Of a stretch of DNA of 64,000 bases, positions 2,024-60,800 are shown in pieces. The notes under the pieces were generated by a model that searched no databases, was not told the origin of the DNA, and was given only the letters and a program-made list of their open reading frames with translations. The translations under genes and the position numbers were made by a program. Source of the DNA: Planctomycetota bacterium (GTDB lineage: Bacteria > Planctomycetota > Planctomycetia > Planctomycetales > Planctomycetaceae); assembly GCA_003388505.1 (NCBI GenBank), contig QQVO01000005.1:1-64000 (forward strand), in the 5' to 3' direction. Position 1 is the first letter of the stretch. Every line of letters starts with the position of its first letter.

Positions 2024-4282
2024 TCATTCCTGCGAATCCCGCAACTCCTCCAACGCCTGCCGGAGCTGTTGAATCCGCCCGATCAGGATCCCCTCCGGCC
2101 GGCGATCAAGAATCCAGTCCACCTCAACCAGCCCCTCCTCCGCGCGTCCGGTCGTGTAGCACAACACGGCCCGGAACAACCGGTCCTGCGCCGATTCCGG
2201 ATCGATCGCCAGCACGGTGTCGGTGTAGCGCAGCGCCGCTTCCGCGTCCTGCGCGTCGTTCGCCACGTTGATCAGATTCCGCAACATGCGGGTGATGATC
2301 TCATCGGCCGTCTGCGGCCGCAGGTATTCCTCGTCCCACGCCAGGCCGCGCCCGGTCGCCTGCGCCACCGCTTCCTCATGCGTCATCTCGCGACCGCGAT
2401 CGAAGACGTCAATCAGTCGCGGCTCACCCTCGTTCGGCGCCCACTGCACGACGAAGTGCCCCGGCAAACCGATCCCCGCCGCCTCAATCCCGACTCTCCG
2501 GGCCAGTTCGATGTACAGCACAGACAACGTGATGGGCAAACCTTCCCGGTCGTCGATGACTTCATTGAGGTAGCTGTTCGACGCCCGGTAATAGTTCGTC
2601 CTCGATCCGTGGAAGCCCTGCTCTTCAAACAGGTACGTATGAAACGCCGCCAGCCGGTCTTCCTCACTGACGTCCTCCGGCAGCGACGCCAGAAATTCCT
2701 GCGCCATGTCGCCGACCGTTTCGAGATACACCGCCACGTCGAGTTCGTCGTTGTCCAGCGCGGCGATCAACAGCGCGGCGTGCAGTAAATCAACCTCGGC
2801 TTCCTCCTCCGACAGGACGGCGGTCAGCTTCTCTCGCACGCGCCCTTCGTGGACCGCCAGCGAGAGTTCCCGCAGACGCTGCGCCTGTTGTTCCAGGTCC
2901 AGGGCCCGCGCTTCCAGAGCCCGGCGGCTGCCCTCGCCCGCGTCGGCAACTTCGTCAATGAGCGACTGCCTCGGCGGCCGAGGCGTCGGAATATCGGCCA
3001 CGAGTTCGTCGATTCGCTCCATCAGTTCCGGAGTCACCCGCAGCGACGGCAACTCGTCTCCCACCGCAAAGCCCTTGAAGGTCGCCGTCGTATGCCGGAA
3101 CTTCGCCAGCCCCACACGCCCCGACGCGTACGTTGAGTCCGACACCTCGAACACCAGTTCATCGTTGCAGTAGCAGGCGAAGTGATCGCCGTCGATGCGG
3201 ACCCTCAACCGGTTCCAGTCGTCTGCCTTGTACGCGGCGTGCCGTTCGTCCCGCAGCACATGCCAGTCGTACACCGTCGGCCCGTCGAACCGGCTGAACC
3301 GCAGCTTGCCGCTGCTGGGATAAAACCCGTAATGCCGGTCCTCGCCGTCCGAGTGAAAAATCAGCCCCGCCGCCCCGTCCTCCTGATCAATACGAACCGT
3401 CACCGCCACCTCGAACGGACTCTCCGGCGCATCGACCGTCGACAGGCACAGCGAGCGACCTCCGAAGCCGCTCCCCTGCCCCTCCGCACGAACCCGTCCC
3501 GCGCGCTGCGTCCAGCGCACTGCGTCGTCCGGCGCTTCCCACCGCCGAGGATTGAGCCTGCCAATCGTCAGCCACTTCGACATCGGAATCGGATTCGGAT
3601 TCTCCAGCAGCGGCTTGAGCGAGTTGATCGTCACCGCGTAGCCCAGATTGTCCGTCACCAGCGACTTGAGCGTCAGCAGTCCGTGCACACGCCCTTCCAG
3701 ATCAACCAGCGGTCCGCCGCTGTTGCCCTGTTCGATCGGGATCGCCAGTTGAATCATCGACATCCCGTCCACGTCCTCGCGCAGACCCGAGACGATCCCC
3801 GCCACCACGCTGTGCTCCAGACCCTGCGGGTTTCCGAACGCCACCACCGGCTGCCCCTGCTCCAGATCGTCCGAGTCCCCGATCTCCAGCGGCTTGAGCC
3901 CTTCCGCGTCCACCTTGAGAATCGCGAGATCCTGCGACCGCTCATGGGCATGAACAGTCGTCACGTCATATTCCGCGCCGTCTAATGTACGAACCGAGAT
4001 CGGCCGCGCTTCGCCGATCACATGCAGGTTGGTCGCAATCAACCCGTCTTCGCTCAGCACGAACCCTGCCCCGATGCCCTGCGGCTTGCCGTCGCGCCCG
4101 GAGAAACTGACGACGACAATCGACGGCTGCACCTGAGCCACAAGATCCTTGAGGCTGGGGAGCGCCAGCAGCGACTCTTCCCCCTCCACGGCGACTGCCG
4201 CATCGTCCGCCCGCAGCAATTGCGAGTGCGGCGTCGAAATCCACAAGCTCGTGACAATCAAGAACAAAAAAAGTCGATTCAT
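2024..4282 (-). CDS. HtrA-like serine protease fused to LamG-like and SirB1/transglutaminase-like domains
   Basis: A 752-residue exported protein with an unusual domain order. A signal peptide (residues ~1-25) precedes a trypsin-like DegP-type domain (~45-230) with catalytic H87 (TNLHVIG), D118 (SQDLAIL) and S188 (EQGNSGGPL). Residues ~245-408 resemble a LamG/3-keto-disaccharide-hydrolase-type beta-sandwich (NRLRVRIDGDHFACYCN, then GRVGLAKFRHTTATFKGF). A charged helical linker leads to a SirB1/Transglut_core2-like region (~540-690; EGLPITLSVLYIELARRVG, then GLPGHFVVQW). The end resembles TPR helices. No PDZ domain is seen. The ATG at 4282 starts a good signal peptide. Likely periplasmic or cell-surface; the substrate is unknown. 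Confidence 0.88.
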   Translation of the reverse strand: MNRLFLFLIVTSLWISTPHSQLLRADDAAVAVEGEESLLALPSLKDLVAQVQPSIVVVSFSGRDGKPQGIGAGFVLSEDGLIATNLHVIGEARPISVRTLDGAEYDVTTVHAHERSQDLAILKVDAEGLKPLEIGDSDDLEQGQPVVAFGNPQGLEHSVVAGIVSGLREDVDGMSMIQLAIPIEQGNSGGPLVDLEGRVHGLLTLKSLVTDNLGYAVTINSLKPLLENPNPIPMSKWLTIGRLNPRRWEAPDDAVRWTQRAGRVRAEGQGSGFGGRSLCLSTVDAPESPFEVAVTVRIDQEDGAAGLIFHSDGEDRHYGFYPSSGKLRFSRFDGPTVYDWHVLRDERHAAYKADDWNRLRVRIDGDHFACYCNDELVFEVSDSTYASGRVGLAKFRHTTATFKGFAVGDELPSLRVTPELMERIDELVADIPTPRPPRQSLIDEVADAGEGSRRALEARALDLEQQAQRLRELSLAVHEGRVREKLTAVLSEEEAEVDLLHAALLIAALDNDELDVAVYLETVGDMAQEFLASLPEDVSEEDRLAAFHTYLFEEQGFHGSRTNYYRASNSYLNEVIDDREGLPITLSVLYIELARRVGIEAAGIGLPGHFVVQWAPNEGEPRLIDVFDRGREMTHEEAVAQATGRGLAWDEEYLRPQTADEIITRMLRNLINVANDAQDAEAALRYTDTVLAIDPESAQDRLFRAVLCYTTGRAEEGLVEVDWILDRRPEGILIGRIQQLRQALEELRDSQE

Positions 4283-4382: not shown

Positions 4383-5255
4383 TCAGCCACTCTCCTGCTC
4401 TCCCTCCCGTTCACCTCCGTTCTTGACGTAGAACTCCGACAGATCAAAGTCTCCCTTAACGTCCGCCTCCAGCATCGACAGCTTCGCTTCCAACCGCTGA
4501 AACCGCAATTCGACGTGCGGATCGAACAGCGGTCGCGTCCGCCGCGGCTTGGGACGCGGAACACGCGGATATCCCAGATGCCGCTGCAGCGCGGCGAACA
4601 TGTACAGCGGATCCTTCCCCCGGTTCGCTTTCGCAATCCGCCCCTCCTGAACCCCGAACAACACCGGAAACGACGGACGATAGCCCTCGTTTCCCGTCCG
4701 GAAGCGCACCTCGTTCACCCGGTGTTCGGACCGCAGATAGATCAGATCCGCGAAGTCGACCGTGCCCAGTTCACGCCGGATCTTCAGAATCCAGTCCCGC
4801 CAATCGTCGTCGAAGAACGAGTCCGCCGCGATCGCCGACATCCCCGCGTCGTATCCCAACCGGTTCCGCGCGATGCATTCAAACTGGTAGACGAACAGCG
4901 CCTGCGGAGTCGGCGCCTCTCCCGCACGATACTCCGCCTCATGCTCCAGAATCTGCAGAGCGATCCGCATGTCAAACCGCGAATCCTCATCCTCGGCCCG
5001 CTGCACGACAAACGCCTGAAACGGCGTAAAGTAATGCGACAGGCTCGCCATCCCGTCACCCATCCGGCCGTGGAGATTGAGTTCTCCCAGCAGAAAGTCG
5101 ATTACCATCGGCAACCGCGTTGTCGCCAACACCTCCTCCCGCAACCCGGCCAACGCCTCCTGCGCAGGCGTATTCTCCTCCACCCGCTCCCGGCAGACGC
5201 GGAAGAAGTACGCCTGTTCGATATACTCGTCCCGGTTGAGCGATTGATTCGGCAT
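4383..5255 (-). CDS. Conserved-type hypothetical protein
   Basis: A soluble, acidic, mostly helical protein of 290 residues that I do not recognise. It has no signal peptide and no membrane segment. Visible features are a Pro/Arg-rich patch ([12 protein letters not shown]) at about residue 235 and a short C-terminal coiled-coil-like stretch ([19 protein letters not shown]). An in-frame TTG extends it seven codons to 5276, but the ATG at 5255 ([11 protein letters not shown]) is the more conventional start; neither has a strong ribosome binding site. It lies about 100 bp upstream of the HtrA-fusion gene on the same strand and may be cotranscribed with it. Antisense frames here look like shadows. 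Confidence 0.75.
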
Positions 5256-5322
5256 GAGGAGCTGAAAACCTGTCAAGCAGCGGCGACGCGGCCCGGTCGC
5301 GCCTGCCCCCGATTATACGACG

Positions 5323-6654
5323 ATGCCCCACCCACAGCGAGAAACGAAAGCCGCGACAGCCCAACCGCCCGGCCGGATGGCAAATGACCAAAGCCCGCTG
5401 CGCGTCTGCTTCGTCTGCAAGTATGCCCACCCCCTCTTCGACGCGACCGACCACTCTCCCATCGGAGGAGCCGAAACCCACGCCTTCACCCTGGCCCGCA
5501 CACTCACCGACCGATCCGGCTTACAGGTCAGTTTTCTCGTCGAGGCCCCGCGACTCTTTCGCCGGAAGGTCGTCGGCGGCATCACGGTCATCAACAGCGG
5601 CGACGGCTTCGATCGCTGGCGATACGCCGTCTCGCAGCAGGTCGAAGTGATGAGACGTTTTCCCTGGCTCCGCATCAACCACTGGCACTGGTCATTGCTA
5701 TGGCGCTTGCCCATCCTCACTGCTCTGCGGGTGTTTCGCCGCCGCCACATCGACCCCCTGACGCCCTCCCCCTTCGCCTCCCGGGTCAACGCGGACGTCT
5801 ACTGTTGCTTTGGCGTCTCGGCCTACACCGCCGGTGTCATTGCAGCCGCAGTCGCCGATTCACGCAGATCGGTCCTGTTCCTGATGTCCAACAGCGAGTT
5901 GAACCCGGAATATCAACCGAGTTCCGACTACGTGACCCCGCATGGCGAACGGGGCGACGTCTGTCGCTATGTGCTCGACCACGCGGAGCTGATCGTCGCA
6001 CAGCACGAACAGCAGCAGCGAATGCTGCGCGAGACCTTTGGTCGCGAGTCCCTCATCCTGCCCAATCCGATTGACCTGACGGAGTGGGATCGACTCGCAT
6101 CGCGGCCCAGTCCCACGCTCTCCCGGCTTGGTCTGGATCGTTTCGTTCTCTGGATCGGCCGGGCCGATGACTTTCACAAACGCCCCAAACTCGCCTTTCA
6201 ACTGGCGCAAAGGCTGCCGGACATTGACTTCCTGATGCTGCTCAATCCGTGGGACATCGACCTCGCGCGCGAACTGGCTGAATCCCGGCCTCCGAATGTC
6301 ACGATTGTTGAATCGATTCCGTTCTCCGAGATGCCGGCCCTGTTCGCGCGGTCGGCCGCGTACTGCAGCACCGGGTCTGCCGAGTACGAAGGCGCTCCCA
6401 ATGTGTTCATCCAGGCCGCCGCAGCGCGGGCGCCGGTCATTTCGCTCGACGTTTCTGCACCTGTGATTCAAGACGGAGGAGGCGGCTTCGTCGCGCACGG
6501 CAACCTCGACCGACTCGCCGTTCAAGTCGAGAATTGCTGGAATGACCCCGAAGCCGCGCGCCGCATCGGCGACGCGGGACGAAACTACGTAGAACAGCAT
6601 CACACCGCGCCGGCGATCGCAGACCAACTCTTGCGCCGACTTATGCAACCCTGA
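5323..6654 (+). CDS. Glycosyltransferase family 4 protein (first of a tandem pair)
   Basis: A 443-residue GT-B glycosyltransferase, predicted to move a sugar from a nucleotide-sugar donor during surface glycan assembly. The N-terminal domain begins with VCFVCKYAHPLFD and the glycine loop PIGGAETHAF. The C-terminal donor domain has LWIGRADDFHKRPKLAFQLA and EGAPNVFIQAAA. At the usual EX7E position the second glutamate is glutamine. The ATG at 5323 is used; an internal ATG at 5377 (MANDQSPLRVCF) is also plausible because the first 18 residues look unstructured. The next gene is a paralogue starting 12 bp downstream, so they are probably cotranscribed. Acceptor and sugar cannot be told. Confidence 0.9.
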   Translation: MPHPQRETKAATAQPPGRMANDQSPLRVCFVCKYAHPLFDATDHSPIGGAETHAFTLARTLTDRSGLQVSFLVEAPRLFRRKVVGGITVINSGDGFDRWRYAVSQQVEVMRRFPWLRINHWHWSLLWRLPILTALRVFRRRHIDPLTPSPFASRVNADVYCCFGVSAYTAGVIAAAVADSRRSVLFLMSNSELNPEYQPSSDYVTPHGERGDVCRYVLDHAELIVAQHEQQQRMLRETFGRESLILPNPIDLTEWDRLASRPSPTLSRLGLDRFVLWIGRADDFHKRPKLAFQLAQRLPDIDFLMLLNPWDIDLARELAESRPPNVTIVESIPFSEMPALFARSAAYCSTGSAEYEGAPNVFIQAAAARAPVISLDVSAPVIQDGGGGFVAHGNLDRLAVQVENCWNDPEAARRIGDAGRNYVEQHHTAPAIADQLLRRLMQP

Positions 6655-6666
6655 AAGTGTTCCGGT

Positions 6667-7971
6667 TTGACGCCCTCCGAGTCACAAAGGCCGCATGCGC
6701 ATCAAGGAGACCGGATCGACGTCTGTCTCGTCGCCCTCGGCGCGCTCCCGGTCGTTGATCCGAATCTGCAGCGACCGATCGGCGGAACCGAAACCCGCGC
6801 CTGGCAGTTCGCCAAGGGGCTCGCGGCGCGCGACGATGCGTCCGCCAGCCTCGTTGTTCGCACAACTCACTCCCGGCCCGCCTTCGAACGAAATGGGGTG
6901 ACCATTCTCCCCCGCCACGAACGACTGTTTACCCTTTACGAAGCAGTCGGACACTCGCTTGAAAAATCCCCTCGCTTCCCCGGCATCCGCATTCGGCGGC
7001 TCAACCCGAATCTCATCTGGCAACTGCCCGTCGTCGCGCTGCACCGGACGTTCTTGTCCCGCCCGCGCGATCCGAGACGGCCTTGCCCCTTCTTTCAACA
7101 GATTCCTGCGGACGTTTTCGTCGCGTTCGGCGTCCAGTCGACGGCCGCGACCGTCATCGCATCAGCCCACGAAACGAGTCGTCCGGCCGTCCTCGTCCTC
7201 GGCTCCGACAGCGATCTCGACGAGCGCTACAAATCCGGGTCCGCTTTCGTCAGTCCCTACGGCGATCGCGGAGATGTCTGCCACCACATCCTGATGCGCG
7301 CCGATGCAATTGTCGCCCAGACCGAAAAGCAGCAGCGACTCCTCCGAGATCGCTTCGGACGCGAATCGACGCTCATTCAGAATCCCATCGACGCGGCAGA
7401 GTGGGACGAGCGCGCTTCAGCTTCGCTCAATCCGGATGATACCGCCGGACTGGACCGGTTCATTCTGTGGGTCGGCCGAGCCGAGTCAGTGCACAAGCGC
7501 CCGCTCATCTGCCTCGAACTCGCGCGGATGCTACCCGACGTCGACTTCCTGATGATCCTCAATCCCCGCGACCCGGCCGTCCAGCGCGAGGTGTATCACC
7601 ACGCGCCGCCGAACGTGCGCTGTGTCTCGCACGTGCCGTTCGAACGGATCCCGTCGGTCTTTGCGCGGGCGGCCGCACTCGTCAGCACGTCGTCGCTGGA
7701 AGGTTTTCCCAATGTGTTTCTGCAGGCCGCGCTGTCCCGCGTACCGATCGCCTCCCTTGAAGTCGGAGAAGAATTGCTGTCGCGATTCCCGGGCAGCCGC
7801 GTGGCCCATGGAGATCTCTCGGCGCTCAGCGCATTCCTCCGCGACGCGTGGACCGGAAACGGTCCGGATTCAAACACGCTCGACGTCGCGCGAAACGTCG
7901 TGATCAATGAACACGGCCTCGAACGCCAAACCACCCTCCTCGCCGAAGTCCTGTGCGCCGCCCGGTCGTGA
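6667..7971 (+). CDS. Glycosyltransferase family 4 protein (second of a tandem pair)
   Basis: A 434-residue paralogue of the preceding gene with the same landmarks: PIGGTETRAWQFAKGLA in the N-terminal domain, GDRGDVCHHILMRADAIVAQ in mid-protein, FILWVGRAESVHKRPL and EGFPNVFLQAALSR in the donor-binding domain. It again has Gln where the second Glu of EX7E usually sits. The only in-frame start before the conserved N-terminus is TTG at 6667, 12 bp after the upstream stop; an in-frame stop sits at 6652. Expression probably depends on translation of the first gene. The pair looks like a tandem duplication that has diverged to use different acceptors. Confidence 0.9.
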   Translation: MTPSESQRPHAHQGDRIDVCLVALGALPVVDPNLQRPIGGTETRAWQFAKGLAARDDASASLVVRTTHSRPAFERNGVTILPRHERLFTLYEAVGHSLEKSPRFPGIRIRRLNPNLIWQLPVVALHRTFLSRPRDPRRPCPFFQQIPADVFVAFGVQSTAATVIASAHETSRPAVLVLGSDSDLDERYKSGSAFVSPYGDRGDVCHHILMRADAIVAQTEKQQRLLRDRFGRESTLIQNPIDAAEWDERASASLNPDDTAGLDRFILWVGRAESVHKRPLICLELARMLPDVDFLMILNPRDPAVQREVYHHAPPNVRCVSHVPFERIPSVFARAAALVSTSSLEGFPNVFLQAALSRVPIASLEVGEELLSRFPGSRVAHGDLSALSAFLRDAWTGNGPDSNTLDVARNVVINEHGLERQTTLLAEVLCAARS

Positions 7972-21329: not shown

Positions 21330-24300
21330 GTGTCGCTTCCGAAGTCCACGCGCTTTCGAGTGACGCGGATCGGAGTGTTGGTTTGCCTGTTCGCGGCGAC
21401 CACACGACCGACGTGCGCCCAGTTGCGCGTTGTCGACGATCCTCCCTTGACGGTCGCGCAGGATGAATCGCTGCCGGTCGAAACCGCCGCCCCGGCCGAA
21501 ACCGACCCGATCGCCGTCTCCGCCCAGTTTGTCCAGAAGTGGCAGGCGGATGACGGCGTCGAAACTCTCTTGCTGAGAGGCCGTTGCAGCGTCCTCCAGG
21601 GAGACATGACGCTGACGGCTCGGCAGATGGTCATCTGGCGCTCCCCTCCCGTACAGGCCGGCCGCACCGAGCGCTTGACGGTCTACATGGAGGGAGAGGC
21701 CCGCATCGCGTGGCCGTATCGCAGCGATCAGCAGCACTCGATGTTTCTCAAGCTGGAAACCGCCTCGGGCGTCAGCCTGCCTGAGACCTCCCGGCAGATC
21801 TCAGGGGCAAGCGATCCCCTCTTTCTGCGGGCCGCAGCAAGACAGCAGGAAACGCACCGCACGGCGCTCCAGCCCACACAGTACATCGTGCCTGCCCAGT
21901 CCGAGGGCCCGCTCCTCACGCCCACCCCGGGGCTCCAGCCCATTCCGTTGCAGCGGCACGTCTCAGTCAACCCCCGCTACCTCGGCCAACGCCTGACGGT
22001 CGATACCAGCGTCTCCGACTCCGTCCCCCCCGAACTGATTATCACCCTCACCCGAGGCGTCAACATCGTCGTCGACAATGTCCCCGTCATGGTCAACGGG
22101 GCGACCGTGCTGACGACGATCGACCTCACCGCCGACAGCGCCGTGATCTGGACCGACGCACAGCGGGTCGACGACTTCGCAACCGGCCTCAACTTCAACG
22201 TCGACGCGAATACGCCGCTCCAGGTCTATCTGGAGGGAAACATCATCGTCCGCCAGGGACTCAGCGAGGCCCGCGCCACGCACGCGTTCTACAACGTGGG
22301 GGAACGTCGCGGACTCCTCATGAACGCCGAAGTCCGCGCATTCGTGCCGCAGCTCCAGTCCTTCCTGCGGGTCCGCGCGCAACAGGTGCGGCAATTGTCG
22401 GAATCAAGCCTGCACGCCCGCAACGCCTGGGTCACAACCAGCCAACTGGGGCAACCCGGCTTCCGCCTCGAAGCCAGCGACATCTATCTTGAAGAACGCC
22501 CCCGCCCGGACGGACCGGCGTTCAACCCCTTCACGGGCCAGGCCGAAGCCAGCGACCTGTGGGTCACCAGCCTCAACAACCGCCTCTACATTGAGAACAC
22601 CCCGGTCTTCTACGCCCCCTACCTCTCCGCCCCCGCCGAGGATCCGCAGGTTCCGCTCCGCAGGCTGAAATTCGGTTACGACGGCATCTTCGGCCTCTCC
22701 GTCCAGTCAATCTGGAACCTCGAAGGACTCTTCGGTCTCGAACTCCCGCAGGGCGTCGACTGGAATCTGCAACTCGACGGGTTCTCCGAGCGCGGCCCCG
22801 CCGTCGGAACGCTCGTCGACTACGACTTCGAAGCCGCCCTCATCGGCGCGCCGGCTCATCACGAAGGATTCGGAAACCTTTACTACCTCCACGACGGCGG
22901 ACGCGACAATCTCGGCCTCGGCCGCAGAAATCTCGCCGTTCCCGACGAAAACCGGGGCCGAGCGCTCTGGAGGCATCGGACCGACGTCGCCAACGGGAGT
23001 TGGCTCACCGCCGAACTCGGATTCCTCAGCGACCGCAACTTCCTGGAACAGTACTACGAACGCGATTGGGACACCGGAAAAGACTACGAAACGCTCGTCG
23101 GACTCAACCACCAGTACGACAACCTGACGATCTCCGGCCTCGTCCGTGGACGGCTGAACGACTTCTCCAACCAGACCAACTGGCTTCCCAAGCTCGATCT
23201 CACCATTCTCGGCGAACCTCTCCTCAACAACTGGCTCACGTGGAGTTCCCACTCATCGATCGGTTATGGACACATCCGGCCGGCCGAACCGCCCTCCGAC
23301 CCGTCCGATCCCTTCACGCCGATTATCGATCCCAACAGCGGCTTGCCGATCTTCCCCAACGTCAACGGCACGGTCGCCATGACTCGCCACGAACTCAACC
23401 TGCCGCTCAACGTCGGTCCCGTCAACATCGTCCCCTACGTGCTCGGAGAAGCCGCGCACTGGCAGGAGGACATCACCGGCGGAGAACTCACCCGCCTGTA
23501 CGGGAGCGCCGGCGTCAAAGGCAGCGTGATGGCGTGGACCGTCCGCCCCGACATCCGCAATTCGATTCTCGGGCTGAACGGACTCGCCCACAAGATGATC
23601 TTCGACTTCGACTACTACTACGCCAACTCCGACGAACCTCTCTCCACGATCGCGCAGTACAACGAGTTCGACGACAACGCCCAGGAAAGGTTCCGGGAGC
23701 GTTTCATTCTGCTCGAGTACGGGGGCGTTCTCCCCGCGATGTTCGACCCCCGCTTCTACGCCGTCCGCTCGGGAGCGGGCCGAAACGTCACCGCACCGTA
23801 TCACGAACTCGTCGACGACATGCAGGTTCTCAATCTCGGCTGGCGGCACCGGTGGCAGACCAAAGTCGGGCCGCCCGCCCGGCCGCGCATCAAGGACTGG
23901 ATGACGCTCGATCTCGAAGCCAGCTTTTTCCCCGACGCCGATCGAGACAACTTCGGAGAGGACTTCGGACTGCTCGGCGGCCGATACAACTGGTACGTCG
24001 GAGAACGCACCGTCCTTCTCGCCGATGCCCTGTACGACGTCTTCAACGGAGGCCAGGAACTGTGGAGCGTCGGCATCCTCAGCCAGCGCAGCACCCGCGG
24101 CAGCATCTACCTCGGATTCCGGCAGATCAGTGTGGGACCGATCGACAGCCAGTTGATCGCCGCCAGTTACAGCTACGCCATGAGTCCCAAATGGGTCTCC
24201 ACGTTTGGAACGTCCTTCGACGTTGCCGAAGGCCGGGATCGCGGCCAGTCGTTCACCATCTCCAGGATCGGCGAATACGCGCTGCTTCACTTCGGCTTCG

Positions 24301-24410
24301 GATACGACCACAGCCGGAACAACGTCGGGATCGGCCTCTCCATCGAGCCGCGCCTCGGCGGATACGGCCCCGGTTCAACCCAACTCAGCTCCCTCCTGGG
24401 AATCCAATAG
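21330..24410 (+). CDS. LptD/OstA-like outer-membrane protein
   Basis: A 1026-residue exported protein starting at GTG 21330, with a signal peptide (RIGVLVCLFAATTRPTCAQ). The N-terminal half contains OstA/LptA-like beta-jellyroll segments (LLLRGRCSVLQGDMTLTARQ and QVYLEGNIIVRQGLSEARAT). Residues from ~400 to the end have the alternating pattern of a large outer-membrane barrel (RLKFGYDGIFGLSVQSIWNL, NWYVGERTVLLADALYDVFN). This fits LptD, which inserts lipopolysaccharide into the outer leaflet, but it is longer than the usual ~780 residues and carries an extra N-terminal region. No paired LptE gene is next to it. It has its own promoter, and a diacylglycerol-kinase-like gene follows 70 bp later. 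Confidence 0.8.
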   Translation: MSLPKSTRFRVTRIGVLVCLFAATTRPTCAQLRVVDDPPLTVAQDESLPVETAAPAETDPIAVSAQFVQKWQADDGVETLLLRGRCSVLQGDMTLTARQMVIWRSPPVQAGRTERLTVYMEGEARIAWPYRSDQQHSMFLKLETASGVSLPETSRQISGASDPLFLRAAARQQETHRTALQPTQYIVPAQSEGPLLTPTPGLQPIPLQRHVSVNPRYLGQRLTVDTSVSDSVPPELIITLTRGVNIVVDNVPVMVNGATVLTTIDLTADSAVIWTDAQRVDDFATGLNFNVDANTPLQVYLEGNIIVRQGLSEARATHAFYNVGERRGLLMNAEVRAFVPQLQSFLRVRAQQVRQLSESSLHARNAWVTTSQLGQPGFRLEASDIYLEERPRPDGPAFNPFTGQAEASDLWVTSLNNRLYIENTPVFYAPYLSAPAEDPQVPLRRLKFGYDGIFGLSVQSIWNLEGLFGLELPQGVDWNLQLDGFSERGPAVGTLVDYDFEAALIGAPAHHEGFGNLYYLHDGGRDNLGLGRRNLAVPDENRGRALWRHRTDVANGSWLTAELGFLSDRNFLEQYYERDWDTGKDYETLVGLNHQYDNLTISGLVRGRLNDFSNQTNWLPKLDLTILGEPLLNNWLTWSSHSSIGYGHIRPAEPPSDPSDPFTPIIDPNSGLPIFPNVNGTVAMTRHELNLPLNVGPVNIVPYVLGEAAHWQEDITGGELTRLYGSAGVKGSVMAWTVRPDIRNSILGLNGLAHKMIFDFDYYYANSDEPLSTIAQYNEFDDNAQERFRERFILLEYGGVLPAMFDPRFYAVRSGAGRNVTAPYHELVDDMQVLNLGWRHRWQTKVGPPARPRIKDWMTLDLEASFFPDADRDNFGEDFGLLGGRYNWYVGERTVLLADALYDVFNGGQELWSVGILSQRSTRGSIYLGFRQISVGPIDSQLIAASYSYAMSPKWVSTFGTSFDVAEGRDRGQSFTISRIGEYALLHFGFGYDHSRNNVGIGLSIEPRLGGYGPGSTQLSSLLGIQ

Positions 24411-46450: not shown

Positions 46451-46800
46451 AACTCGCTCCGGAGTGTTATTCGGAATATTGGCGGCCGGAAAATCGCTCC
46501 GCCCGGCAGCGCAGTTTAGCGACCGCCTGTTTGGAATTCACGCGGATACTCTGAACGCGCGCGTTCATCGGGAACCCTTTCAGTCGCACTGGCGAGAGTT
46601 GCCCACCACCACGCCAGAGCACACAGCGGCGAAGCCGCGCCTGCATATAGCAGCGGGCGTCAGCCCGCTGTCCGCCGCCAAAAACCAGAATCCGAGCCGC
46701 GAACGCGGCGTCAGCAGGCTCCATGTCTCCCACACGATCCATCGCAGGTACTCAACCGATCACCCCCAGCCCGTGACACTCGTCAATGGCGGAGCGCTCA
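46451..46800. other. 350-bp intergenic region with palindrome and two hairpins
   Basis: Upstream of the exported HEAT-like protein. It contains a perfect 16-bp palindrome TGAACGCGCGCGTTCA (46552-46567). Two GC-rich hairpins follow, GCGGC-GAA-GCCGC (46626-46638) and CAGCGGGC-GTCA-GCCCGCTG (46651-46670). These could be an operator and REP-like or attenuator structures. No gene was found. Confidence 0.45.
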
Positions 46801-48786
46801 TCATTGGTGAAAACGAGAGTCAGCGACAACAACCTCACATTCCGGCAGACTATCGAGGAACACTCTGCCGTACCGCTTTGTGCAGACCCGCGGATCGAGA
46901 ATCGCGACCGTCCCTGTATCGGTTCCACTGCGGATCAGTCTGCCGAACCCCTGCCGCAGCCGAATCGCCGCTTCCGGAACCTGGTAGTCCATAAACGGAT
47001 TGCCCCCGTCTCCCCGAATCTTTTCCAGACGCGCTTCGAGCAACGGGTGATCGGGCACGCTGAACGGCAGCCGCGCCACAATCACCGTCTGCAAGGCGTC
47101 CCCCGGCACGTCGACCCCCTGCCAGAAGCTGTCCGCTCCGAACAGGACGGCGTTCCCTTCCTTGCGAAACCGCTCCACCAGCGCCGTGCGGTCGACGCCG
47201 GCCCCCTGGCACAGCAGCGACCGGTTGCACGACGTCAACCACGGCGCGAGCCGATCGGCGCAGCTCTTCAGCATGCGGTAACTCGTGAACAGAACGAACA
47301 CGCCGCCGCTGGTTTCCTCGACAAGTTCGCGAATCCGCTCGCAGGCTTGCTGCTCGAATTGCGCCGGCGCCCCGGACGGATCGGGCAGATGCGGATTCAG
47401 AACCAGACGCACCTGCCGCCGATAGTCGAACGGACTTCCCAATTTGAGTTCGTTACACGAGGTGAGTCCGACCCGCTGCCGAAAAAACCGGAAGTCGGCC
47501 TCGCCGACGGAGAGCGTGGCGCTCGTCAGGATCACCGTGTCGATCCGGCTGAAGAGTTCCTCCCGCAGCACCGGTCCGACGTCGACCGGAGCGGAGACCA
47601 GCCGCACCACCTGCCCCCTCCGCCCGGTGACTTCCGCCCAGTAGACCGCGTCCGACTCGGTTTGTTTCAGCCAGGCGTCGATTCCGGCAGCGAGACCATC
47701 GAGCCGATCGGCCGCCGCGGTCAATTCGATCTGCTGCTCTTCCGCAGAGAGCCGCGCCGCGTAAGTCCGGATCTTGATCGACAACCGGCGGAGGTCGGGG
47801 CTGACAGGGTTCTCCAGCGAAAGTCGCTCGTGCGCCCGCCCGTTTCCCGGCTGTTGCCGCGTGAGCCAGCCCCGCACCTGCTCAAAGAACTCGTCGGCCA
47901 GATACCGCAAACGCAAAGCGAGTTCCTGCGCGCCCGGAACATCATGGAACAGCAGCAGCCCTTTTTGCTGCCGCTCGTTGTACAGCCGGTTCAGCGTGTA
48001 GTTGATCTGCCCGCTCGTGACCGACAGCCCGAGATGCTCCGCTGCGACCCCCTCGATCTGGTGGGCCTCGTCGAAAATGACAACGTCGTAGTCCGGCAGC
48101 ACGCTCGCCCCCTCGCGGCGCAGCGCAAGATCCGAAAAGAACAGCGCGTGATTGACGACGATCAGGTCCGCGTTCCAGACGCGGCGACGCGCCTTGTAGA
48201 AGAAGCATTCGTCGTAAGTCGGACACTTCCGGCCGAGGCAGTTGCCGTGTTCGCTCTTCACCTCATCCCACAACTCCGGTTCGGGCCGAAAACTCAGGTC
48301 GCTCAGGCTGCCGTCGGTCGTGCTCGTGCTCCACTCTTTCACTCTGGAGAGTTGCTGCAGCGAGGCGGCGGCGGCGAACAACGAACCGGCCCGCTCCCCC
48401 GCGCCTTTCAGTCGTCGCAGACTGATGTAGTTGGAACGCCCCTTGGCCAGAACGGCGGAGAACTCGACGGGCAGCACCGCGTTCAGAAACGGGATGTCGC
48501 GGTGAATCAGTTGTTCCTGCAGACTGATGGTGTGCGTGCTGACGACGATTCGTTTTCGCCCACTCTCCTTCCCGTCCCGCTGAGCCGCTGCCAGGATCGC
48601 CGGCACCAGATACGCAAAACTCTTTCCCACGCCGGTCCCCGCCTCCACGACGAGATGCGAACCCTCCGCGACCGCGCGTTCAACCGCCTCGGCCATCTCG
48701 AGCTGCTGCGGACGGTGCTCGTACGCGTCAAGCCGGCCGGCGATCATCCCGTCGGCGTCGAGGACATCAGCGGGAGTCAGTCGCAC
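46801..48786 (-). CDS. DinG/XPD-family ATP-dependent DNA helicase
   Basis: A 661-residue superfamily 2 helicase that unwinds DNA 5' to 3'. Walker A is VEAGTGVGKSFAYLVPA (48-64), the DEAH box is VIFDEAHQIEG (236-246), and motif VI includes RLRQGFGRLIRSGTDTG near the C-terminus. In the iron-sulfur region three cysteines are seen (C183, C188, C194 in NCLGRKCPTYDEC), but the earlier position, usually Cys after GRxNY, is Ser122 (GRSNYISLRRL). A four-Cys 4Fe-4S cluster is thus questionable. The start is GTG 48786 with AGGTGA upstream. It lies 60 bp downstream of the phosphatase gene on the same strand. Confidence 0.92.
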   Translation of the reverse strand: MRLTPADVLDADGMIAGRLDAYEHRPQQLEMAEAVERAVAEGSHLVVEAGTGVGKSFAYLVPAILAAAQRDGKESGRKRIVVSTHTISLQEQLIHRDIPFLNAVLPVEFSAVLAKGRSNYISLRRLKGAGERAGSLFAAAASLQQLSRVKEWSTSTTDGSLSDLSFRPEPELWDEVKSEHGNCLGRKCPTYDECFFYKARRRVWNADLIVVNHALFFSDLALRREGASVLPDYDVVIFDEAHQIEGVAAEHLGLSVTSGQINYTLNRLYNERQQKGLLLFHDVPGAQELALRLRYLADEFFEQVRGWLTRQQPGNGRAHERLSLENPVSPDLRRLSIKIRTYAARLSAEEQQIELTAAADRLDGLAAGIDAWLKQTESDAVYWAEVTGRRGQVVRLVSAPVDVGPVLREELFSRIDTVILTSATLSVGEADFRFFRQRVGLTSCNELKLGSPFDYRRQVRLVLNPHLPDPSGAPAQFEQQACERIRELVEETSGGVFVLFTSYRMLKSCADRLAPWLTSCNRSLLCQGAGVDRTALVERFRKEGNAVLFGADSFWQGVDVPGDALQTVIVARLPFSVPDHPLLEARLEKIRGDGGNPFMDYQVPEAAIRLRQGFGRLIRSGTDTGTVAILDPRVCTKRYGRVFLDSLPECEVVVADSRFHQ

Positions 48787-48846
48787 GCATCACCTTCCAT
48801 GTCCAGAGAGCGAGGGCCGACGTGTGGGAGCCCGTACAATTCGACC

Positions 48847-50583
48847 TCACGAAACCCGCTGAAGACCGACAATGCACGTGTCGTCCCGCAGCGCGCTTTC
48901 GCCCACGTAGTCTTCCACACTGTTGACGATCGCGTTGACCACGGCGTCGATGTCGCCGTCCGTGTCGGCAATGCACTTCTCCAGGCGGCGGCGACCAAAA
49001 ATTTCGCGCTGCTCGTTCATCGCCTCGGTCACCCCGTCCGTATAGCCGATCAGCGTCTCACCGGATTTGATGGCAAACTGCGACTCCTGATAGTCGAGAT
49101 CCGGCACGATTCCCAAAGGCAGGCCCGACTCGTCGCGCCCCAGTTGCTCGATCTTCCCGTCGGTCCGTCGCAACAGTGGCGCCAGGTGGCCTGCATTGAC
49201 GAGTCGCACCGTATGCTCCGCCGGATCGACCACCAGCACCAGAAACGTGATAAACCGGTGTCCCAGACCGCTCGATGCAATCTCCCGGTTGAGGCCCGCC
49301 ACCGCCTGCGCCGGACTCTCGTTCGCCAGCAACTGATACCGCGCCGAAGAGTACAGCCGCGCCATGAGTAGAGCGGCCGGCATCCCTTTCCCGGCGACGT
49401 CGCCCAGCGTCACCGCCACCTTCCCTTCCGGCAGCATCACGTAGTCGAAGTAATCCCCGCCGATCCGCAAAGCGGCTTCGTAGTAGTCGGCAAAGGCGTA
49501 ATGCTCGACCGTCGGCCGGGACTTCGGCAGAAACCCGAGCTGAACCTGCGTGGCGAAATCGAGGTCGCGGTCCAGTTCTCGCTTGCGCAACAGCGCCTCG
49601 TGAAGCGTGGCGTTCTCAATCGCCATCGCCGCTTGCGTCGCCAGGCTCACCAGCAGGTCAAGATCCTCCTTGTTGAACTCATTATTCTTCCCCCGCGTCA
49701 CCACCTGAATGACTCCGATCGCCTCGTCGTCGTGGCCGACCAGCGGCGCGCACATCACCGACCGGATTTTCAGCCGGTTCAGACTCGTGCTCTGATTCAG
49801 TTTGGGATCATCCGGAACGTTCTGGCTCAGCAAAGCCTGCCGCGTTTCCATCGCCTGACGCACCACGGTCATGCTCACCGCAACCGCGTCCGCCTCCCCC
49901 CCCTGTCGCAACCGCGTCGCCTTCACGTGCAGCTTCCCGGTGTCCGGGTCTTTCAGCAGCACGAACCCCTGGGCCGCCTGCGGAAAGATCTTGAACAGCG
50001 TCGACAGCATCTTCGGCAGAACCGCATCGACCTCCAGTTCGCCGCCCAGCGCCCGGCTGATCTCCAGCACCGCCTGCAGTTTCAACTCCGGCTGGAGCTT
50101 GAACGACTCGTCCGACGACCGCCGCACGTCGATCTTGTCGACCACAGACGACGATTCAAACAACGGAATCTCTTGCGACTCTTCCGTATAGACGCCGCTG
50201 TCCTCAATAATCGGCTGCTCGTCGGTCTTCCGTTCCCCGAAGGCTGTGTCCGCCTGCCGGCCGACCCCGGAACTCGTGTCGCTGATGCTCGACCCGTTCT
50301 GCTCGAACGTGACAACGATGTCGCAGACGCGGATCTGGTCGCCGTCCGTCAATTCCGCGCGGCCTTCCACCGGAACCGCGTTCAGGTACGTCCCGTTGCG
50401 GCTGCGAAGGTCTTCGACGTAATAACTGCCGTGGCTCTCGAGAATCTGGGCGTGGTGCCGGCTGACGGCGCCGTTATCGAGCACGATGTGGCAGTTCGGG
50501 TGACGGCCCATCAGCGTCCGTTCGCCCTCCAACTGGTAGAGGGCGCCGGAGCCGGGTCCGTGCACCACACGCAGAACAGCCAC
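48847..50583 (-). CDS. FHA-GAF-PP2C (SpoIIE) phosphatase
   Basis: A 578-residue signalling protein. The FHA domain (1-95) has LMGRHPNCHIVL (R27), SRHHAQIL and LRSRNGTYLNAV, and binds phosphothreonine. A linker follows, then a GAF domain (~165-330; AVLEISRALGGELEVDAVLP, then VMCAPLVGHDDEAIGVIQVV), and a SpoIIE/PP2C domain to the end (GGDYFDYVMLPEGKVAVTLG, DVAGKGMPAALLMA). The metal-binding aspartates of GGDYFD and GDVAGKG are present, so it should be an active Ser/Thr phosphatase. The start is GTG 50583 with GAGG upstream. It likely opposes a Hanks-type kinase. Confidence 0.94.
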   Translation of the reverse strand: MAVLRVVHGPGSGALYQLEGERTLMGRHPNCHIVLDNGAVSRHHAQILESHGSYYVEDLRSRNGTYLNAVPVEGRAELTDGDQIRVCDIVVTFEQNGSSISDTSSGVGRQADTAFGERKTDEQPIIEDSGVYTEESQEIPLFESSSVVDKIDVRRSSDESFKLQPELKLQAVLEISRALGGELEVDAVLPKMLSTLFKIFPQAAQGFVLLKDPDTGKLHVKATRLRQGGEADAVAVSMTVVRQAMETRQALLSQNVPDDPKLNQSTSLNRLKIRSVMCAPLVGHDDEAIGVIQVVTRGKNNEFNKEDLDLLVSLATQAAMAIENATLHEALLRKRELDRDLDFATQVQLGFLPKSRPTVEHYAFADYYEAALRIGGDYFDYVMLPEGKVAVTLGDVAGKGMPAALLMARLYSSARYQLLANESPAQAVAGLNREIASSGLGHRFITFLVLVVDPAEHTVRLVNAGHLAPLLRRTDGKIEQLGRDESGLPLGIVPDLDYQESQFAIKSGETLIGYTDGVTEAMNEQREIFGRRRLEKCIADTDGDIDAVVNAIVNSVEDYVGESALRDDTCIVGLQRVS

Positions 50584-52852: not shown

Positions 52853-54949
52853 ATGAAATTGTGGGCCTCTGAAAATCTGAAACGGTTCGCCCTCATCGTC
52901 GCCCTCGGCGGAATGGGGTCTCTCGTCACCCGCGTGATCGCCGAGGATGAACCATCCGCGTCCCATCCACCGATGCGCGCGCTGCCCACCGCCTCGCAAC
53001 GGCCAATGGAAGACGGACCGTCTTATTTCGTCGATGCAGCCGGCGGCGATGATCAGAACGAGGGCAGCGAGCAGACGCCTTGGAAGACTCTCCGCTACTC
53101 GCTGCGGAAATTGAAACCCGGCGACACGCTGTATCTGCGCGGCGGCGTCTATTACGAAAAGGTCTCTCTCTCACAATCCGGCACGGAAGACGCCCCGATC
53201 ACCATCCGGTCCTACCCCGGCGAAACGGCGATCATCGACGGCGGATTGCGCGAGTTCTTCGACAGCCCCGAAACGAGTTGGGAACCGTATAAGGACGGAG
53301 CCGAAGGCGAGTTCGTTTCAACCCGCACCTACGACGACGCGAATGACCGCCGGGTTCCCTACCAGTTTCTGCCTGCGGCCTGGGAGCCGATGTGGAGCAT
53401 CGAACACGAACGCCCGCTCGCCCTGGGCCACTTCGCCGATTCCATGGTCCCGCTGCACAGCTACCGGGTGGCGGTCGACCTGCGTTCGGAGAACGAACTC
53501 TGGATCGGCGGGAAGTTCGAGATGCGCGACACCGGCGTCTACTGCGGACCGGGACTCTGGTTCAATCGCGAAACCGGCCGCATCCACATCCGCCTGGCCC
53601 ACCACACGCTGGAAGGACTCGGCGACCGCGCCTATCGTGGTGAGACCGACCCGAGGAAACTTCCGCTCATCATCGCAGCCGGTTTCGGCAACGACGTGCT
53701 GCGGGTCAACGGCGTGCAGCACGTTCGCATCCAGGATCTAATTCTTCGCGGGGCCACCGGCAGCCCCATGATTCACGTTTACGGTTCACAGAACGTCGAA
53801 CTCGATCACCTCACTGTCTACGGCGGCTTTCCCGGACTCTTGATCGACGCTTCGCAGAACATTCGCGTCACGCACTCGGCGTTTCGCGGTCTGGCCGCGC
53901 CGTGGACGTCCCGGGCCCACATGAAGTATCGCGGCACCGCGTCGTATCAGATCGTGCTGCGCGACGCCCAGCCGCGCAACGAGAACATCGAACTCGCCTG
54001 GTGCGAGTTCACCGACGACCACGACTTCGCCTTCCTGCGGTTCGTGACCAACCTGCAGTTCCATCACAACTTCGTCGACAACTTCAACGACGACGGTCTG
54101 GAGTGCGGGCCCAAGCTGCGCGACCACACCCTGTTCATCCATCAGAACCGCATCGGCCGTTGTCTGATTCCGATCACGCAGCACGAGATTGAGAAAGACG
54201 AGTCGCCGGCCGATCACGATCCGGAATCGGGCGTCTTCGTCTACCGCAACGTGTTCGACCTGCGGGGCGGCGTCTACAGCGGACCGCCGGCGGAGTCTGA
54301 TCCGAGTGGAGCGTTTCTGAACCGGGAAGGCCATCTCGTCGGCGATCACGGCAGCCCGATCTGGCCCGTGATGCGGGTCTATCACAACACCTTCCTACGC
54401 GAGACGCCCGTGTTTCGCGATTACTTCCTCTTCGGACTCGGCGCGCAGGGACTGCGGGACAACGAGCGCGACGTCTTCAACAACATCTTCGTGCAGATGG
54501 AACGCGTCCCGGGCGTTGGCTTCGCCGGGATCACCGAACCGGGCCGGGTCCGCGAGGGCGGCAATCTCTTGTGGGGCGTCGCCGAAGGTCCGGCTCTCAC
54601 CGCAGACCCGCTCGCAGCGTTCCGAAAAACTCCCCTCTACAAGAAGAGTCGCGACGTCTATCCGCCGGGATGGACAACGCAGGACCAGGTCGCCGACCCC
54701 GGGTTCGTCCACCTGCCGTCTGATTACAAAGCACCCGCCGACCTCAGATTGCAGACCGACAGCCCGGCCGTGGACAGCGGAATCACCCTCCCGGATGCCT
54801 GGCCCGACCCGCTCCGCGACTCAGATTCGGGCGCCCCCGATATTGGCGCCCTCCCCCTCGGCGCCGACCCCTGGTCGATCGGCGTCGACGGCCGCCTGTC
54901 GCTCTTCGGCGACAATTACCAGCAACAAACCACCGATTCGACGAACTGA
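52853..54949 (+). CDS. Exported right-handed beta-helix protein (polysaccharide-lyase-like)
   Basis: A 698-residue protein. A signal peptide (KRFALIVALGGMGSLVTRV, cleaved before AED) is followed by FVDAAGGDDQNEGSEQTPW, the DUF1565/PbH1 start, and KLKPGDTLYLRGGVYYEKVS with SYPGETAIIDGG. The middle (~270-480) has repeated beta-helix turns (GVQHVRIQDLILRGATGSPM, NVELDHLTVYGGFPGLLIDA). This fold is that of pectate lyases and related enzymes. Catalytic residues cannot be identified, so enzymatic or binding function is open. It lies 95 bp after the aldolase-cupin gene and 24 bp before the isochorismatase-family gene. Confidence 0.88.
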   Translation: MKLWASENLKRFALIVALGGMGSLVTRVIAEDEPSASHPPMRALPTASQRPMEDGPSYFVDAAGGDDQNEGSEQTPWKTLRYSLRKLKPGDTLYLRGGVYYEKVSLSQSGTEDAPITIRSYPGETAIIDGGLREFFDSPETSWEPYKDGAEGEFVSTRTYDDANDRRVPYQFLPAAWEPMWSIEHERPLALGHFADSMVPLHSYRVAVDLRSENELWIGGKFEMRDTGVYCGPGLWFNRETGRIHIRLAHHTLEGLGDRAYRGETDPRKLPLIIAAGFGNDVLRVNGVQHVRIQDLILRGATGSPMIHVYGSQNVELDHLTVYGGFPGLLIDASQNIRVTHSAFRGLAAPWTSRAHMKYRGTASYQIVLRDAQPRNENIELAWCEFTDDHDFAFLRFVTNLQFHHNFVDNFNDDGLECGPKLRDHTLFIHQNRIGRCLIPITQHEIEKDESPADHDPESGVFVYRNVFDLRGGVYSGPPAESDPSGAFLNREGHLVGDHGSPIWPVMRVYHNTFLRETPVFRDYFLFGLGAQGLRDNERDVFNNIFVQMERVPGVGFAGITEPGRVREGGNLLWGVAEGPALTADPLAAFRKTPLYKKSRDVYPPGWTTQDQVADPGFVHLPSDYKAPADLRLQTDSPAVDSGITLPDAWPDPLRDSDSGAPDIGALPLGADPWSIGVDGRLSLFGDNYQQQTTDSTN

Positions 54950-57858: not shown

Positions 57859-60800
57859 CTACTCCGCCGGGTCCGCGGGCAGCGTCACAATGGCCATCGT
57901 CCCATCGTCGCTGGCGCTCACGATTCGCAACTGCTCGAGGCCCGGCAGGCAAACCAAGTTTGTCACGCCGCGCGTATGCGGCCGGAGCGTCCGCACGGCC
58001 TCACCCGTCTTCGCGTCCCACACCCGGATCGACCGGTCATGACTGCCGCTGACGATCCACAAGCCGTCCCGGCTGAAATCGACGCTCGAAACTTCGTGCG
58101 TATGTCCTTGCAGCGTCAGTTTCAGTTCCCCGCTGCGGGCGTCCCACACCTTGACTGTCTGATCCCCGCTGCCGCTCGCGATCCGGCCCCCATCCGGATT
58201 GAACGCGGCACATGAGACAAACCTGGAATGCCCCTTGAGAGTGTGCAGCAGTTCGCCGCTGTCGAAATCCCAGAGATACAGGTCGTTGAATTGACCTCCG
58301 CCGGCAATCGTCCGTCCGTCCGGACTGAATGCGATGCTCGCGATCTCGCCCTGATGACCCGAAAGCGTCTGGACGACCTCTCCCGTCCCGACCTCCCAGA
58401 TCAGGCTCTCGTCCCGAAAGCCGCCTCCCGCGAGCAGACTGCCGTCCTGACTGAACGCGAGGCAACTCATCGATCCATCGTCGAAACTGAGCCGCGTCAG
58501 TATCTCCCCCGTCACAGTGTCCAGAACGGGAATGCCGCCCGACTCAACAGAATCCGGCGTACTCGCCGCAAGCCGCTCACCGTCCGGAGTGACCGCGACC
58601 GCCTGGACCCACTGTAGTTCACCTTCCAGTGTGAGCCTCTCCTGTCCCGTCGCCGGATCCCAGATTGTCACCTGGTCCCTCTGGCCGCTGACCAGCACAG
58701 TCCCGTCCCCGCTCACGGCAAGGGACGCCACGTACCGCGCGGGTCGACGGATCAACGGAAGCTCCGGCCCCTGCGACGCATCCCACAGTTTCATTTCGCG
58801 GGGCATCAAGTAGTCCCCGCTGCCGCTGGCGAGCCGCGAGCCGTCCGGACTGAATGCGATGCAGCGGACGGGGGACGCATGGCCCCGCAATGCGAATGTT
58901 TCGAATCCCGTTTCGGCGTCCCAAAGCCGGATCGTCTCATCATGGCCCGAACTCGCGATCCGCCGACCGTCCGGACTGAAAACCGCGCTCAGCACGTCGC
59001 TCGTGTGCCCCCGCAACGTCAACAACAGTTCCCCGCTCGCCGTATCCCAGATTCGCACCGTCAGGTCCGAACCGGCGCTGACGATTCTGCCTCCGTCGCC
59101 GCTGAAACAAACGTGATTCACGAATGAAGTATGGCCGGTCAATGTCACAAATTCCTCGCCCGTCTCCGCGTTCCAGACCTTAACCGCCTGCTCGGCGCCG
59201 GCGGCAAGCAGCGTCCCGTCCGGACTGAAAGCCGCGCCAGAGAGATTTCGCGTGTGTCCCGAGAGCGTGCGGATCACTTCCCCCGAATCGGCGTCCCACA
59301 ACTTGATGCTGTCCCGATACTCCGACGTGGCGCTGGCGATCACGGCCCCGTCCGGACTGAACGCGACCGACTCGATCTTCCCCGTATGCCCTTCAAACAC
59401 GAGGGTCTCGGCGCCCGTCGCGGCGTCCCACACGCGGACCGTCCCGTCCCAACTCCCGCTGGCGATCTTCTTCCCGTCCGGGCTCACCGCCACCGACGTC
59501 ACCGACTTTTCGTGTCCCCGCAAGCTGTGTCGCTCAGCGCCTGTCGAGAACTCCCAGACCTGGGCGACGCCCGGCGTCGTAAACAACCCGTCGGCCGACC
59601 CGCTGACGACGAACGTCCCGTCCGGGCTGAAAGCGACACTGTTGACGTCGCCCGTCAGTGTCCGGGTCACCGGTCCCTGCGCCGACCGCACCGACCACGC
59701 CTTGACAGTCTGGTCGTCGCTCGCACTCACCACCGTCTCTGCATCGGGACTGAACGCGACCCAGTTGACGTGATCCCGGTGCCCCCGCAGCACGAAATCC
59801 TCGCGGCCGGTGGCGGCGTTCCAGAGTCGAACCGTGCCGTCCCGGCTGGCGCTGGCGATCCGGCGCCCATCATGGCTGAACGCGACGCGCGTGACGTCTT
59901 CCGAATGGCCGGGAAGCGTCAGCAGTTCCTCCCCGCTTGCAGCGTCCCAGACTTTGATCGTGTCGTCCTTGCTGCCGGTGACCAGCCGCGCGCCATCAGG
60001 AGCGACCGCCAGGCTGGAGACCCCGTCCGCATGCCCTCTTGCAATCCACAATTCCTCGCCGCTGGCCGCATCCCAGACTCGCACGGTCCGGTCGGAGGAA
60101 CCGCTGAAGATTTTCGTTCCGTCCGGAGAGAACACCGCCTGCATCACGCCCGCCGTGTGCCCTGTCAGTTTGACCAGTTCCTCTCCCGTCGCCGCATCCC
60201 AGACCTTCACCGACCTGTCGTCGCCGGAACTCACGATTCGAGCGCCGTCGGGACTGTAGGAAACGGTCCACACCCGTCGCTGCCCCGTCTCCCAGGTGCG
60301 GACAGCGGTGAGAGTCTCCACATCCCAGATTGTGACCGTCTGTTTACAGCAACCGACAATGTGGACGCCGTCCGGGCTGAAGGCCAGTCCGTCGACATGA
60401 TCGTTCTGCCGGACCGTCGAACGAAGTTCCTCTCCACTGATCAGGTTCGAGACTTTCACTGTATTGTCATACCCGCCGCTGGCGATTCGCTGTCCGTCCG
60501 GACTCACAGCGACGCAGTTGACCCGATTGTCATGCCCCGCGAACGTCTTCTGATTCTGGTTGAACAGGGAGTACAGATAGTTGAACTCCCAGCCTCGAAA
60601 ATCGCCCCGCGTGGCTTCCAGTTTCTTCCACGCTGCATCCGCGTTGTTCATTTCCCATTCGAGCCGCGCTCCCGCGATCTGGCTGGCATACAGCAGCCAC
60701 TCCGCACGCAGCAGTTGCTCCTCCGTAGCGGCCTGCGCTGCCAGAGCCTGCTCTTTGGCCGCTGCCTCGGCCGTTGCCGCAGCTTCCGCTTGCCCGCGTG

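Follow-up and report, generated by a model that had tools for sequence, protein, structure and literature searches.

A PDZ-less HtrA-type protease of planctomycetes fused to a CBM66-like beta-sandwich and a pseudoenzyme SirB1 domain

HtrA proteases, the textbook PDZ-guided enzymes, are recognised as S1C proteases by a chymotrypsin-like domain with a His-Asp-Ser triad and a GNSGG motif, and in the classic Deg/HtrA proteins this domain is followed by one or more C-terminal PDZ domains. In DegS, the PDZ domain holds the protease off until a signal binds, and in both DegS and DegP it is loop L3 that relays the binding of the PDZ ligand.

A second family of relevance, SirB1/Transglut_core2, extends from Escherichia coli to human FBXO21. 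One section on papain-like folds (PMC10318531) treats Transglut_core2 together with menin, stating the function of the former to be unknown, calling the corresponding domain of FBXO21 inactive and describing menin as a scaffold. The same paper has FBXO21, comprised of an F-box, the inactive transglutaminase-like domain and YccV, driving the degradation of EID1, and the title of a cited paper places MLL and JUND peptides in a single pocket of menin. Similarly, a domain legend on the families around the plastid CLP adaptor CLPF (PMC8889267) names SirB1/Transglut_core2 with UVR and YccV, a legend that does not specify which protein carries the SirB1 label.

The window analysed here, a 64,000-nucleotide stretch of a contig (QQVO01000005.1) from a member of the Planctomycetaceae, carries on its minus strand, at 2024-4282, one intact open reading frame with an ATG start that encodes 752 amino acids and combines these two families. 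Its features are as follows.

2024-4282, minus strand: whole gene including the stop codon (2024-2026), from the reading frame and homologues
4208-4282, minus strand: putative N-terminal signal peptide, residues 1 to ~25, a hydrophobic N-terminus read by eye
3587-4153, minus strand: S1C/HtrA serine protease domain, residues 44-232, by Pfam, NCBIfam and structure match
4022-4024, minus strand: catalytic His87, invariant in 52/52 homologues
3929-3931, minus strand: catalytic Asp118, invariant in 52/52
3719-3721, minus strand: catalytic Ser188 in GNSGGP, invariant in 52/52
3056-3574, minus strand: CBM66-like/PF06439 beta-sandwich, residues 237-409, by Pfam, phmmer and structure match
2798-3055, minus strand: helical arm, residues 410-495, from model and alignment
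2258-2797, minus strand: SirB1/Transglut_core2 domain, residues ~496-675, a PF13369 match found in 52/52 homologues
2534-2536, minus strand: Pro583 at the site of the transglutaminase catalytic Cys, Pro in 52/52
2027-2257, minus strand: terminal TPR-like helices, residues 676-752, with TPR_9 in 44/52 homologues and helices in the model

Pfam identifies Trypsin_2 at residues 71-202 (8e-32), 3keto-disac_hyd/PF06439 at 286-396 (2e-7; 31.7 bits, just passing the cut-off of 26.8 bits), Transglut_core2/PF13369 at 519-668 (3e-42; 144.3 bits against a gathering cut-off of 23.5 bits) and, below its cut-off, TPR_9 at 676-740 (1e-4). NCBIfam places HtrA-type models across 63-227 and the SirB1 model PRK10941 across 517-699 (1e-11), all of these falling below the curated equivalog cut-offs. 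The full-length structural model has a mean pLDDT of 88.3 and a pTM of 0.63, and residues 233-752 modelled alone reach 92.5 and 0.79. At the N-terminus, the model has a helix at 3-12 followed by pLDDT < 50 at 16-41; a hydrophobic N-terminus recurs among the homologue sequences listed, the start codons of which were set by rule of thumb, making their N-termini uncertain. On this N-terminal signal, the protein is predicted to be exported by a Sec-type route, probably placing the protease in the periplasm or at the surface.

All three catalytic residues, H87, D118 and S188, are invariant in the 52 homologues, and the chymotrypsin-like domain, the triad and the GNSGG motif of S1C/HtrA proteases are present. 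The modelled protease domain aligns with the catalytic domain of HtrA1 (3tjn_B) at Z 28.8 and rmsd 2.9 over 191 residues, and the RsgI9 structure 7sjy is also among its structure matches. Of the individual NCBIfam models, TIGR02037 scores 133.8 bits against a cut-off of 416.2 and the MarP model 3.7e-23, below its own cut-off. No PDZ family matches the window protein in Pfam at E <= 1, and the 52 homologues, which match 11 families in all at E <= 0.001, likewise yield none, such that the C-terminal PDZ domain of the classic Deg/HtrA proteins is absent; the protein is therefore filed as one with an S1C/HtrA-type protease domain, rather than as a member of DegP, DegQ or DegS.

The loops of the protease were compared by aligning three fused members with E. 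coli DegP and seven HtrA paralogues from the window's genome, in which there are 12 further HtrA-like matches. The LA insert of DegP is absent from the three fused members, the L3 stretch preceding the catalytic motif is shorter in them than in DegP and all seven paralogues, and the TDAAIN found in most of the others is replaced in them by LAxP(I/V)E or something similar. At the level of these alignments, the loss of the PDZ domain and the change in the loop that senses it appear to go together. Matches in PADLOC, considered as a possible sign of a role in defence, fall on generic protease stretches, and a defence role was accordingly rejected; those in PHROG likewise lie in the protease part.

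The module following the protease has the fold of CBM66. It aligns with that of the Bacillus subtilis levanase SacC (4b1m_A) at Z 21.3 and rmsd 2.4 over 155 residues with 23% identity, and the same relationship is recovered by Foldseek (1.2e-9) and phmmer (3.3e-7); PF06439 matches 51 of the 52 homologues at E <= 0.001. Within the CBM66 sequence alignment lie 17 sandwich residues that are invariant in the family, of which, read by eye, five are common to CBM66 and 12 are not. Another CBM66 is described in PMC11002231 as having modified xanthan rather than levan as its ligand. Two cysteines of the sandwich, C279 and C370 (codons within 3056-3574), are present together in 45/52 homologues, which suggests that, the protein being an exported one, a disulfide may join them within the sandwich. 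Beyond it, residues 410-495 are modelled as an arm that includes a long helix at 450-490. The stretch 408-495 is poorly conserved, with a mean identity to the window protein of 31%, yet it measures 86-98 residues in all 52 homologues, as would be expected of a spacer.

Transglut_core2 matches all 52 homologues at E <= 0.001, and TPR helices follow this core as they do in YchA/SirB1, with TPR_9 recognised in 44/52 homologues, a match below cut-off in the window protein and helices in its model. The catalytic Cys required of an active transglutaminase is missing: its site, assigned by counting from the following helix, is Pro583, and is Pro in every homologue. An own-genome protein with GTC at the same distance supports this assignment in an alignment by eye. 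His609 is kept in 50/52 and Asp625, at the site of the catalytic Asp, in 52/52; N569-S570, D578-R579-E580-G581, P583 and D625 form a cleft motif that is invariant in all 52 proteins and is in part common to stand-alone SirB1 proteins. The G-x-P motif is nearly invariant in 26 rows of such stand-alone proteins, E. coli YchA having Ala there. On these residues, the SirB1 domain here is a predicted pseudoenzyme. A possible parallel, the periplasmic transglutaminase homologue HvyA from Caulobacter, was set aside because it is, according to PMC4241560, a BTLCP member that needs its catalytic residues.

The domain readings also bear out a sequence-only reading of this DNA, which had proposed a protease with a complete H87-D118-S188 triad and no following PDZ domain, a LamG-like beta-sandwich and a SirB1 domain with terminal TPR-like helices, in an order unlike that of DegP/DegQ. 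It proved right in all of these parts when set against Pfam and NCBIfam, the 52 homologues and the model, with the closest match of the sandwich now refined to CBM66 by phmmer, Foldseek and structure comparison.

Two other Transglut_core2 proteins were observed in the course of this work. The window's genome lacks an ordinary stand-alone SirB1; a second, weak PF13369 match in it (23.7 bits, with the cut-off at 23.5) lies in a different, 459 aa protein (L039:638-2017, minus strand, contig C66 of genome G000). This Transglut_core2-like protein retains the catalytic Cys (GGTCASMP...RGHLLFRW...TIDW) and has a Cys-rich tail with repeated C-x-C-x2-C-type motifs. Another planctomycete frame (L120:1097-2368, minus strand) encodes a Transglut_core2 domain with a YccV-like domain after it, a pairing also found in human FBXO21.

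When the SirB1 and TPR parts were compared jointly with known structures (model residues 244-511, corresponding to ~476-743 of the protein), 13 of the best 50 matches covered them, and all 13 were menin, at Z 14.2-15.0 and rmsd 4.3-5.2 over 227-243 aligned residues with 9-11% identity. Among these are human menin 7uj4_A (Z 15.0, rmsd 4.6, 234 aligned) and menin with MLL1, 3u85_A (Z 14.7), scores to be read with caution, as chance matches between helical folds can occur around Z 13 in such searches. A list of 50 also leaves room for matches to other folds. The match spans the transglutaminase-like and then the TPR parts in the same order. Menin is absent from the Foldseek top 50, and its family PF05053 is not listed for the window protein in Pfam at E <= 1. 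The best 60 of 231 PDB-sequence matches of the SirB1 profile hold TPR proteins and no menin, which makes this a link by fold alone. A literature search pairing 'menin' with 'SirB1' found nothing.

The distribution of the architecture was surveyed in two draws of genomes. In a draw of 59 relatives, including the window's own genome, where a match meant protease to SirB1 on one frame, 31 of the 58 other genomes matched, comprising 27/36 of the same family and 4/22 of other families of the class; one of the 31 has its N-terminus cut by a contig end, and two further genomes (G005 and G012) hold partial copies cut in the same way. In an even draw of 392 genomes across the phylum, again including its own, residues 205-752 were used as the query: at least 30 genomes have the sandwich and SirB1 on one frame, and two more (G329 and G394) have parts cut by contig ends, giving a total of at least 32/392. 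The fusion is thus a minority trait in the phylum, the remainder of the 247 matching genomes having stand-alone SirB1 or weaker hits among the matches listed. All 29 of the non-own loci from this draw that were read at full length include the protease. By contrast, Pfam finds no protease domain in ten long SirB1-bearing frames of other genomes.

After removal of seven loci repeating genomes, 52 proteins from 52 genomes were aligned. The 51 homologues, all from other genomes, are 39-64% identical to the window protein and, with it, represent eight planctomycete families, five of the same class (f1, f3, f4, f5 and f8) and three of other classes (f56, f73 and f79). The order of domains is identical in every member, Trypsin_2 and Transglut_core2 each matching 52/52 at E <= 0.001, PF06439 51/52 and TPR_9 44/52, and identity to the window protein averages 59% in the protease, 55% in the sandwich, 52% in SirB1 and 41% in the TPR end. 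Because there are 51 homologues in other genomes, a chance or assembly artefact is excluded. The earlier reading had suggested searching other planctomycetes for the same architecture, and it is there, in 52 genomes and eight families; neither a frameshift or assembly artefact nor a lack of the fusion elsewhere, either of which would have counted against that reading, was found.

When 25 stand-alone SirB1 domains, including E. coli YchA, were placed in a tree together with 29 of the 52 fused ones, all 29 of the latter grouped on a single branch supported at 100/100, showing, as far as a sequence tree can, a single origin of the fused domain. The fusion is real and old. Many of the fusion genomes also have a stand-alone SirB1 among the rows listed, such that the fusion did not simply absorb an only copy. 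Beyond the phylum, a contig scan that used one protein as its query picked up a single locus (L070), which is not a fusion, its protein having two DUF1080-like stretches by sequence. Among plasmids, 888 records match and none covers 80% of the query, the ten listed covering 24-27%, in the protease part.

The gene itself is the only one common to all of 21 loci compared (the window and L071-L090; 14-19 kb each, 16 kb in the window). At 3-1955 on the minus strand, the strand of the HtrA-SirB1 gene itself, a TGS-domain GTPase and a rhomboid protease with Rhomboid_N follow on its 3' side, separated by short gaps. Each of these two neighbours recurs on that side and strand in 3/21 loci, too few for the neighbourhood to be taken as a functional clue. 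Directly upstream, 4383-5276 (minus strand) is a 297 aa frame with no Pfam family at E <= 1, and 5323-7971 (plus strand) holds two similar tandem frames (443 and 434 aa) resembling glycosyltransferases by eye; at one locus (L085), a frame similar by sequence to the former lies near the copy and a relative of the latter adjoins it. Elsewhere in the window are a 1779 aa frame, the C-terminal half of which contains many WD40 repeats (57859-63198, minus strand), an FHA, GAF and SpoIIE phosphatase protein (48847-50583, minus strand) and three long plus-strand frames (21330-24410, 46786-49371 and 52853-54949) with no Pfam family at E <= 1e-4, some of which may be shadow frames in GC-rich DNA.

The best explanation, which in our estimation has about an even chance of being correct, is that in an envelope HtrA-type protease the PDZ domain and the loops responding to it have been replaced by two targeting modules. 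The window protein would be an S1C serine protease that is exported by the Sec route and works in the cell envelope of planctomycetes, and its sandwich may dock the enzyme to a glycan, whether in the envelope, in a capsule or in an extracellular polysaccharide. The SirB1-TPR unit, borne on a helical arm of near-constant length, might use the cleft that separates its dead transglutaminase fold from its TPR helices to grip a peptide or protein partner and present it to, or near, the protease active site, as would a PDZ domain in DegP or DegS; clients would then be a restricted envelope set, as opposed to those of general quality control. Predicted export, the triad, module order, the dead SirB1 domain and its single origin are shown at the level of sequence, and the roles of the sandwich and the SirB1-TPR unit are suggested by resemblance of fold. 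The sequence-only reading had likewise proposed that a glycan- or peptide-binding module directs the protease; the fold matches to CBM66 and to menin, a peptide-binding scaffold, make this the favoured view, and the sharing of just five of the 17 sandwich residues with CBM66 tells against it, as does the replacement of H609 of the cleft in 2/52 homologues. The links of SirB1 to degradation elsewhere, in FBXO21, in the CLPF legend and in the SirB1-YccV protein at L120, make a receptor role likelier than a random addition. With a pTM of 0.63, the full model does not fix where the tail lies with respect to the active site, and the PDZ-less HtrA-like proteins MarP and RsgI9, having no such tails, indicate that loss of PDZ alone requires no substitute.

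The tail could instead be a regulator, with SirB1-TPR or the sandwich inhibiting the protease until a signal, either a glycan or a peptide, binds, whereupon a fixed partner would be cut to start a stress response. The changes in the PDZ-ligand-sensing loops mean that regulation must differ from that of classic HtrAs, the near-constant length of the 408-495 arm in all 52 proteins suits a mechanical link, and RsgI9, an anti-sigma factor, joins an S1C protease to a non-PDZ domain; however, no sigma or anti-sigma neighbour is conserved in the 21 loci and the short L3 argues against the known relay; a regulatory tail is on balance unlikely. Somewhat more improbable is that SirB1-TPR and the sandwich are scaffolds alone, tying a housekeeping protease into a complex of the envelope without influencing which clients are cut: modules of the SirB1 and TPR kinds may serve simply as scaffolds, and menin is so called in the paper cited above (PMC10318531), but a cleft motif invariant in 52/52 is more than a tether needs, even with part of it common to stand-alone SirB1. 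Transglutaminase or cysteine protease activity of the SirB1 domain, which would make the protein a bifunctional enzyme, we regard as very improbable; the fold is transglutaminase-like and D625 and His609 persist in 52/52 and 50/52, but the Cys site is Pro throughout, G-x-P is nearly invariant in stand-alone SirB1 as well, and the FBXO21 domain is termed inactive in that same paper (PMC10318531). A frameshift, misassembly or chance read-through joining separate genes has a negligible chance of being the answer, given full-length open frames in 52 genomes, single-contig ones included; the four partial copies all end at contig edges.

A wider conjecture, which should for now be viewed as doubtful, is that menin has its bacterial counterparts in the SirB1/Transglut_core2-TPR proteins, which, as dead transglutaminases, would bind peptides or degrons and hand proteins to a joined degradation machine. 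If so, that machine would be a ubiquitin ligase in the case of FBXO21, YccV/HspQ-linked in others and, in the present protein, an extracytoplasmic HtrA protease, and the planctomycete fusion would have receptor and protease on one chain, allowing the ligand to be read from what the protease cuts. A literature search on SirB1/Transglut_core2, protease, HtrA and planctomycete fusions, covering titles and abstracts outside subscription papers, found no description of the architecture; the domain combination is readily visible in Pfam and databases may list it. A conserved HtrA branch in which PDZ and its sensing loops were swapped for a lectin-type module and a pseudo-transglutaminase would represent another way to aim HtrA proteases. 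For the SirB1 family at large, the fusion yields a testable guess, that of a client receptor for proteolysis, and, because cleavage would report binding, an assay; it may be a route to what the widespread, unexplained SirB1 proteins do.

In comparison with DegP, DegQ, DegS and HtrA1, the window protein shares the protease fold, the triad and the export signal, whereas it lacks PDZ and the LA insert, has a short L3 and LAxPIE in place of TDAAIN, and carries two unrelated modules after the protease. MarP, a membrane protein, and RsgI9 are alike in having S1C-type protease domains without PDZ. Neither has SirB1 or CBM66-like parts, RsgI9 being, from its record titles, an anti-sigma factor with an NTF2-like domain. 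The CBM66 of SacC, a levan binder, has the same beta-sandwich fold, but identity is 23% and 12/17 of the aligned family-invariant residues differ. With SirB1, YchA and Transglut_core2 proteins the C-terminal part has in common the core domain and TPR helices, the cleft motif and the missing catalytic Cys, differing in being putatively exported, fused to a protease and in a clade of its own. FBXO21 resembles it as a protein with an inactive Transglut_core2 domain that sends a client to degradation, according to the same paper (PMC10318531), but is a cytosolic ubiquitin ligase receptor, whereas the window protein has its protease on the same chain and, by prediction, outside the cytoplasm. Menin, finally, matches in fold over both the transglutaminase-like and TPR parts, and the human protein also lacks the catalytic Cys, as that paper has it (PMC10318531); it is, by contrast, eukaryotic, ~10% identical and not joined to a protease.
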